56,120 bases of DNA from Rodentolepis nana (taxonomy: Eukaryota; Platyhelminthes; Cestoda; Cyclophyllidea; Hymenolepididae). The translations under genes were made by a program, and so were the position numbers. The notes under the pieces were generated by a model that saw nothing but the letters and a program-made list of their open reading frames with translations, made no database searches and was not told the origin of the DNA. The DNA lies in NCBI GenBank assembly GCA_900617975.1, contig UZAE01012036.1:26060-82179 (forward strand). The letters run 5' to 3'. Below, in pieces: positions 52,056 to 52,383 of the stretch (within the stretch, counting starts at the first letter, position 1; each line of letters starts with the position of its first letter).

Positions 52056-52383
52056 GTATTTATTTATTTCAAATGGCGGGCTTTATGATACTTATCATTT
52101 GCCCTTTAGCTGACTTCGGGCTTCACAGAGGGAAGGAGAAACATCAAAGTGAGAAAAAGTGGAGAAGGGGGACAGAAGAATGATTCGAAGATGTAAAAGC
52201 GACAGATAGACACAAAGGCAGAGAAAAAGTAGGATAAGTATGGTGGAAGTGATCGAATAAGACATACAACGGGGTCATGGCAGTTTGAAGTCAGAAGCCA
52301 ACTGCCAGTTAATAGACTTTTTTGCCGTATGAGAATACGTTGCCCAGGGTGCACCACGTGGAGGTAAGTCTATCGCACACCCC
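52056..52383 (-). mobile_element. Interspersed repeat, copy C (full length, nested insertion)
   Basis: A 328-bp copy inserted inside another copy. It is flanked by the perfect 15-bp target-site duplication tttacatctgtaaat (52041-52055 and 52384-52398), which fixes both ends to the base. In the sense direction (minus) it starts GGGGTGTGCG, carries an HDV-like ribozyme in the first 72 nt and has a short hairpin near the 3' end (atgataagtatcat). It ends ccatttgaaataaataaatac. Runs of four to five T in the sense strand would stop RNA polymerase III, and no clear A/B boxes are seen, so it does not look like a classical tRNA-derived SINE. A non-autonomous partner of a non-LTR retrotransposon, possibly RTE-type, is the best guess. 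Confidence 0.9.
52312..52383 (-). ncRNA. HDV-like self-cleaving ribozyme at the 5' end of repeat copy C
   Basis: In sense order (minus strand): P1 GGGGTGT (52383-52377) pairs with GCACCCT (52352-52346) over seven pairs, with a G-U wobble at the cleavage-site pair. P2 ATAGACTT (52373-52366) pairs with AAGTCTAT (52319-52312), eight perfect pairs. P3 ACC/GGT (52365-52363 with 52355-52353) encloses loop TCCACGT, whose CC can pair with GG of the following GGGCAA (P1.1). P4 is CGTAT/ATACG (52339-52326). J4/2 is GCAAAA, with the candidate catalytic C at 52324. Order, helix lengths and the CTGGGCAAC segment match the HDV-like fold. The first nucleotide is also the first base after the target-site duplication, as expected if cleavage sets the element's 5' end. 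HDV-like ribozymes are known at the 5' ends of R2, RTE and related retroelements. Confidence 0.78.

Follow-up and report, generated by a model that had tools for sequence, protein, structure and literature searches.

An HDV-like ribozyme predicted at the 5′ end of a dispersed tapeworm SINE and of the LINE that is likely its partner

In a 56,120-base stretch of tapeworm DNA (hereafter the window), a 72-nt segment of the minus strand is very probably an HDV-like self-cleaving ribozyme, occupying the opening ~72 nt of a LINE-dependent SINE. We regard it as a well-supported addition to the HDV-like ribozymes that head retroelements; in flatworms, one is already known from the R2 of planaria. Among the matches listed from literature outside subscription papers, none described an HDV-like ribozyme from a tapeworm or from a flatworm SINE.

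Fold and covariance scoring of the candidate ribozyme

Read directly, the 72 nt at 52383-52312 (minus strand) contain a complete HDV-like nested double pseudoknot, with P1, P2, P3, P1.1 and P4 in order. In minus-strand numbering, element position i corresponds to window position 52384-i, and the parts of the fold are as follows.

52312..52383, minus strand: HDV-like ribozyme, element positions 1-72 (RF02682; RF00094 below gathering; helices; descriptor)
52377..52383, minus strand: P1 5′ strand GGGGUGU, pairing with 52346-52352 (sequence)
52346..52352, minus strand: P1 3′ strand GCACCCU, pairing with 52377-52383 (sequence)
52366..52373, minus strand: P2 5′ strand AUAGACUU, 8 bp with 52312-52319 (sequence)
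52353..52365, minus strand: P3 (ACC/GGU, 3 bp) and L3 UCCACGU (sequence)
52326..52339, minus strand: P4 hairpin CGUAU-UCUC-AUACG, 5 bp, 52339-52335 with 52330-52326 (sequence)
52320..52325, minus strand: J4/2 GCAAAA, including C52324, the presumed catalytic cytosine (sequence)

P1 comprises 7 bp and opens with a G.U pair, and P1.1 consists of two pairs that join C52361 and C52360 of L3 to G52344 and G52345. C52324 in J4/2, the presumed catalytic cytosine, corresponds to C75 of HDV. L3 also holds U52362 and G52357, matching the letters of a U-G reverse-wobble pair that has been described (PMC3774820). The core stretch CCUCCACGUGG is a single letter away from CCUCCUCGUGG, which has been named the best-conserved stretch of the R2Dm ribozyme (PMC5035012).

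The covariance scoring proposed in the first-pass annotation gave a positive result. With the Rfam model RF02682 (HDV-F-prausnitzii), 52383-52312 (minus strand) reaches 45.2 bits, just over the gathering score of 44 (E 3.5e-5), and is the sole gathering-level match in the 56,120 bases to any of 4227 families. The claim of all named helices in the right order is upheld. The RF02682 alignment starts at 52381, with P1 shifted two bases inward and containing one non-standard pair. An all-paired P1 register from 52383 is given both by direct reading and by RF00094 (HDV_ribozyme), which places the first P1 pair at 52383 and scores 35.3 bits, under its gathering score of 50. The predicted cleavage site is immediately 5′ of G52383.

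How much weight can the fold itself bear? We used a custom-made, structure-only descriptor that was tuned after the sequence had been seen; in the window it found 52383 (minus strand) and three more starts (27137 and 27138 on the plus strand and 14145 on the minus strand, all probably chance), and in 12 random windows it found 16 starts. Because matches also occur in random windows, the fold alone is not rare in 56 kb, and we rejected its uniqueness as an argument. The chance of a descriptor match at one pre-specified nucleotide is ~1e-5. The non-chance feature is that the fold starts at a nucleotide fixed independently, by a target-site duplication (TSD) and by recurrent 5′ ends.

RF02682 was also run against the whole genome, where 61 of the 25,212 candidates from a first look received a score; 59 of them fell under E 1e-3 and 37 above the cut-off (the window's own copy was not among the matches listed). 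All 30 loci fetched had this SINE at the RF02682 match. The same search was positive in none of 14 control genomes, and a 26-nt core pattern gave no matches to relatives in viral contigs.

Do the copies themselves preserve the fold? We aligned 73 ribozyme rows (71 distinct), leaving out 6 of 79 as badly decayed. Paired cells amounted to 93.3% overall, against 93.0% in shuffles of the 73 aligned ribozymes, and among the 71 distinct rows to 91.3% in P1, 92.8% in P2, 96.7% in P3 and 94.4% in both P1.1 and P4. Cells with both sides changed numbered 4 against 2.4 in shuffles, the copies being too alike to be informative, and the covariation score of 0.074 against 0.067 was equalled in 5 of 500 shuffles, an excess that relatedness alone can produce. 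Covariation within the family is thus too weak to help, because the copies are too alike. The RF02682 consensus, by eye, has other letters at most of the P1 and P4 pairs, with pairing kept. Among 28 incidental copies, mean pairwise identity was 0.849 in the ribozyme, 0.772-0.805 in the body and 0.813 in the tail, and the cytosine at the catalytic position (C60) was present in 96% of ungapped rows. The core letters TGG[G/A]CAAC were retained in 24 of 35 incidental copies and CGGC[A/T/C]A in 26 of 35, a loss that is as expected for decaying copies and is no proof of function.

In 2 of the 87 core clusters examined, both belonging to SINE copies, the 39-40-nt ribozyme core (P3-P1′-P4) is repeated in tandem, with 7 units at L010:2643-2961 and 3 units at L016:1431-1572 (both on the minus strand). 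The joints differ between them, and the outer P1 and P2 strands are single. Such arrays could have been produced by RT re-copying at the folded ribozyme.

Target-site duplications, 5′ ends and copy number

The ribozyme heads a SINE copy, here called copy B, which lies inverted inside an older copy, A. Seven body-bearing SINE copies were found in the 56-kb window, and those of the pair and its duplication are listed here together with the further copies.

52056..52383, minus strand: SINE copy B, 328 bp (family consensus 325 positions)
52384..52398, minus strand: target-site duplication, the copy abutting the first base of the element (exact 15-nt repeat)
52041..52055, minus strand: target-site duplication, 3′ copy (exact 15-nt repeat)
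51872..52055, plus strand: older SINE copy A, 5′ part, split by the insertion of copy B
52384..52562 (end approximate), plus strand: 3′ part of the same older copy A, containing the 41-nt tandem duplication
7118..7434, minus strand: further SINE copy (sequence comparison)
8040..8368, minus strand: further SINE copy, first 4 bases inferred (sequence comparison)
3558..3846, minus strand: further SINE copy, decayed ribozyme (sequence comparison)
36245..36503, minus strand: further SINE copy, 3′ part absent (sequence comparison)
40641..40887, plus strand: further SINE copy (sequence comparison)

Copy B shares 98% identity with two other genomic copies (40 of 5603 first-look candidates scored in the 107.1-Mb genome) and is probably young. 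An exact 15-bp duplication of the target site, ATTTACAGATGTAAA, brackets it and is flush with the predicted cleavage nucleotide G52383; the duplication therefore marks the first base of the element independently, at the site where the first-pass annotation had placed it. Since copy B was inserted inverted inside copy A, the duplicated letters are those of A itself. The ribozyme of copy A, at 51872-51945, has core changes such as GAACAAC, and the tandem duplication in its tail occupies 52461-52542. Elsewhere in the window lie exons of a lysosomal alpha-mannosidase gene, at 16783-18174 (from a homologue search) and 22779-23465 (by eye). The homologues point to a cestode host: the best named match is from Mesocestoides corti at 75%, with five further matches ranking above it at 75-89%. 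Near the SINE pair, a minus-strand frame at 54112-54663 resembles, by eye, a SOX-type HMG box.

Across the tapeworm genome, copies recur with differing flanks, as had been proposed for a dispersed flatworm element, and their 5′ ends cluster at the predicted cleavage nucleotide. Three kinds of observation bear on this. First, in the 30 loci fetched by ribozyme score, the flanks differ up to the SINE start, as judged by eye and under selection for good ribozymes. Second, start positions are concentrated: the SINE rows extending to the 5′ end number 67, and GGGG opens 30 of the 32 that were selected and 20 of the 35 that were incidental, while the 39 incidental 3′-complete, body-bearing copies with room upstream start at position 1-3 in 20 cases, at 4-6 in 4, at 7-75 in 5 and at 76-235 in 10, a set in which one insertion is counted twice (L063 and L069) and which takes in the right half of copy A, split rather than truncated. 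Third, flank words of at least 9 nt are shared in 29 of 53 full-length copies, compared with 55 of 2090 shuffled pairings; by selection, they occur in 20 of 28 copies chosen for similarity or ribozyme score and in 9 of 25 incidental ones. In 15 of the 29 the word stops flush with the predicted cleavage nucleotide (offset 0), in 4 it extends into the G-run (+1 or +3), and in 10 it stops short at -1 to -5, leaving 1-5 extra bases before G1, which is consistent with untemplated bases or mutated TSDs. The other 24 of the 53 copies gave no word of this length, and among the long words at least that of L018 is an AT microsatellite. This SINE therefore has the variable duplications and fixed ends that are a hallmark of retroposons.

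Fixed 5′ ends would be produced equally well by transcription starting at G1. The 5′ segment might serve also, or mainly, as an internal pol II promoter, the ribozyme being secondary or a relic; we give this a small but real chance. In L1Tc, the 77-nt ribozyme segment (Pr77) doubles as an internal pol II promoter whose downstream promoter element contains CGTG at positions +25 to +28 (PMC4748587), and in the tapeworm element CGTG lies at +26 to +29 (52355-52358). The ribozyme fold explains this motif, however, because the bacterial F. prausnitzii consensus (RF02682) has CGUG at the same L3/P3 place, where a promoter would be meaningless. A full ribozyme fold on the very nucleotide at which transcription starts would also be an unneeded coincidence. 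We therefore retain the self-cleaving ribozyme as the preferred explanation of the fixed ends.

The abundance of the element was extrapolated from two counts, one of the 7 body-bearing copies in the window and the other of 10 copies in 42 loci selected for LINE or RT sequence (132,074 bp, not counting L069, which duplicates another place). The 42 loci point to about 8,000 copies and the window to about 13,000, neither sample being random. L001, which is identical to the window, was excluded from the counts. At one locus, L019, a tRNA-Pro gene (1584-1656) precedes a SINE copy in the same orientation, with about 11 nt between the gene and the 5′ end inferred for that copy; pol III read-through from the gene could transcribe it.

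The LINE partner and the composition of the SINE

On sequence comparison, the SINE reads as a LINE 5′UTR, a pyrimidine-rich body of ~140 nt and a LINE tail.

52275..52383, minus strand: SINE 5′ part homologous to the LINE 5′ end, ribozyme and 5′UTR (sequence comparison)
52134..52274, minus strand: SINE body, pyrimidine-rich, bounds approximate
52057..52132, minus strand: 3′ tail common to SINE and LINE, the last ~75 nt, bounds approximate

The tail connects the SINE to reverse transcriptases of the same genome. We fetched 30 RVT_1 loci of 150 matches, 20 of them LINE-type by match length, and in 11 of these 20 the SINE 3′ tail lies downstream of the RT on the same strand, over 38-81 nt (one of the 11 tails is cut by a contig end). 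A 3′ tail in common with a LINE of the same genome, a further retroposon hallmark, is accordingly present. An alignment of 25 hand-picked tails of 82 contains a hairpin, GGGC..AUGAUA..UAUCAU..GCC, followed by a TAAA-type end; its folding energy is unremarkable in the SINE (z -1.15) and moderate in the LINE (z -2.04).

The 5′ ends are related as well. At L063, a ribozyme stands upstream of the LINE frame, and a search with the L063 sequence just past the ribozyme gave 40 matches (40 of 577 candidates scored), of which 12 loci were fetched. In all 12, a related ribozyme lies directly before the 5′UTR and the start of the endonuclease, with differing flanks. This ribozyme opens with the four letters GGGG at 9 loci, with TGGG at 2 (L072 and L073) and with GAGA at 1 (L063, the same place as L069). 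A cmscan of 8 of the 12 loci placed an HDV model at the junction in 7, at E<=0.05 and with scores of 32.8-40.3 bits, all below the gathering score of 44; L079, with A in place of the catalytic C, received no HDV-model score in that scan. The SINE consensus is 83% identical to the LINE 5′ end over positions 1-109 (L071 and L075), and the homology stops at the LINE ATG, ~30 nt past the ribozyme; the endonuclease starts ~100 nt past the first base of the element. Ribozyme and tail occur within one element in both L063 and L073. The latter (L073:1432-2012) is an internally deleted LINE of ~580 nt that retains the 5′ ribozyme and 3′ tail; a SINE like this one could have come about through such an intermediate.

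What type of element is this partner? Judged by its domains, which come from different copies for the endonuclease and for RT/RNase H, the autonomous partner is likely an endonuclease-RT-RNase H LINE: a PF14529 endonuclease is found in L051, PF00078 RT and then PF00075 RNase H occupy a single frame in L063, and both of the latter domains are present in L060 too. The arrangement of AP endonuclease, RT, RNase H and 5′ ribozyme, without a separate upstream ORF, is that of an L1Tc/ingi-like element. The closest flatworm-named relatives of the LINE proteins are from Rodentolepis nana and Hymenolepis microstoma. To our knowledge, RTE elements are without RNase H. Because the LINE has RNase H (PF00075) after its RT (PF00078), we rejected a partner of the RTE clade, and the suggestion of RTE as partner type did not hold.

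The proximity of the ribozyme to the LINE ATG, and the extension of SINE-LINE homology up to that ATG, would also suit a fold that is real and serves target-primed reverse transcription or translation (RT binding or ribosome entry) with no cutting involved. This we think improbable. Copy B keeps the first P1 pair, P1.1 and the J4/2 cytosine, and the LINE 5′ ends keep CGGC[A/T/C]A in 11 of 12 and TGG[G/A]CAAC in 12 of 12; moreover, the predicted cleavage position coincides with the end of the element, which a non-cutting fold would not predict. These observations argue instead for the self-cleaving ribozyme.

The body of the SINE is 77% pyrimidine (SINE consensus positions 110-250), and a search of the 30 RT loci found it in SINE copies only, the remaining matches listed having E>=0.42; we therefore rejected an origin as internal LINE sequence within the scope of those 30 loci, the 12 LINE 5′-end loci lying outside that search.

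Could the element be an ordinary pol III SINE, headed by tRNA, 5S or 7SL sequence, with a chance resemblance to HDV at its 5′ end? SINEs commonly show a fixed 5′ end, a length of ~325 bp and a tail derived from a LINE, and the best A-box-like match is 10/11, but it falls within the tail (consensus position 270) and is equalled in 114 of 500 shuffles. The best B-box match (7/11) is no better than in shuffles, and a related ribozyme heads a LINE with another interior. No tRNA, 5S or 7SL was found in the window at Rfam gathering level or by ARAGORN, which also gave 0 genes in the consensus. With both the RNA-gene and the box searches negative, a pol III head with A and B boxes was rejected, and we regard the pol III reading as highly improbable next to that of a SINE headed by a ribozyme.

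Proposed mobilisation and comparison with known systems

How might such an element spread? We propose that a host transcript would read through a SINE or LINE copy and that the nascent RNA would fold into the nested double pseudoknot found here computationally. A cut 5′ of G52383 would then release an RNA starting GGGGUGUGCG, and the enzyme of the LINE (EN-RT-RNase H) would recognise the common 3′ tail and its hairpin. As the common tails and the TSDs suggest, target-primed reverse transcription would copy this RNA up to its cleavage-made 5′ end, with duplications of about 9-17 nt such as many copies display, so that insertions would start at G52383 and be flanked by TSDs. Since the 5′ ends of the LINE and of the SINE are both ribozyme-like, both may be freed from host RNA. 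The SINE itself may have been assembled from the LINE 5′UTR, up to the start codon, and the 3′ tail, placed around the body, as its composition suggests. Release by a ribozyme had been put forward in the first-pass annotation for a non-autonomous element; the ribozyme at the LINE 5′ end and the common 3′ tail speak for that mechanism, and the attribution to RTE, given the RNase H, is the part that fails. More broadly, we speculate that in this animal LINE/SINE pair, whose layout is ingi-like, the ribozyme would replace the promoter altogether, about 10^4 SINE copies would have been reached by riding host transcripts, and re-copying at the folded core would have left scars such as the arrays of L010 and L016, a picture that we would call possible rather than probable.

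The closest parallel is found in trypanosomatids, where L1Tc/ingi and NARTc/RIME/SIDER combine the same type of AP endonuclease-RT-RNase H LINE with a 5′ HDV-like ribozyme, and where a segment of ~77 nt containing the ribozyme is common to L1Tc and the short non-autonomous elements, as in the tapeworm pair (PMC4035085). By its sequence, the tapeworm LINE/SINE layout matches that of L1Tc with NARTc, the likeness being one of layout. In contrast, the tapeworm pair has an animal host, and its SINE body was not found in the LINE RT loci. The R2 SIDEs of Drosophila likewise have the 5′ ribozyme and the 3′ end of their LINE, are mobilised in trans and depend on co-transcription (PMC3414825). However, the R2 and R2/R1 SIDEs reside in 28S genes and are called rare there (PMC3414825), whereas the tapeworm SINE is dispersed in thousands of copies and its partner LINE is of a different type.

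More generally, the R2, R4, Dong and Baggins LINEs have an HDV-like ribozyme at or near the 5′ junction, as here, and in a planarian flatworm the R2 ribozyme cuts at -28 in 28S (PMC3774820); R2 is site-specific, whereas the tapeworm SINE is dispersed. RTE has also been named among elements with 5′ HDV-like ribozymes (PMC7761336). The RF02682 and RF00094 families have the same double pseudoknot and the same core letters around L3, GGCAAC and J4/2, but differ by eye in the letters of P1, P2 and P4 and occur in a bacterial or viral context. Metazoan retrozymes, too, are small non-coding ribozyme retroelements without an obvious promoter; in contrast to the single HDV-like ribozyme and LINE tail described here, they have hammerhead ribozymes, tandem units and circular RNA (PMC7761336).

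Tapeworms or taeniids have been reported to be without a canonical piRNA or PIWI pathway (PMC6880638, PMC4558846), and parasitic flatworms practise trans-splicing (PMC12582326); in tapeworms, many mRNAs are reported to be trans-spliced. If the proposed mechanism is true, host transcripts that carry intact sense copies may be cut. The rule of a ribozyme at the 5′ end and a recognition signal at the 3′ end would then apply in a tapeworm too, both to a SINE dispersed in high copy number and to the LINE that is its likely partner. This reading yields the testable claim that a short repeat can spread without a promoter of its own when a ribozyme trims host transcripts.
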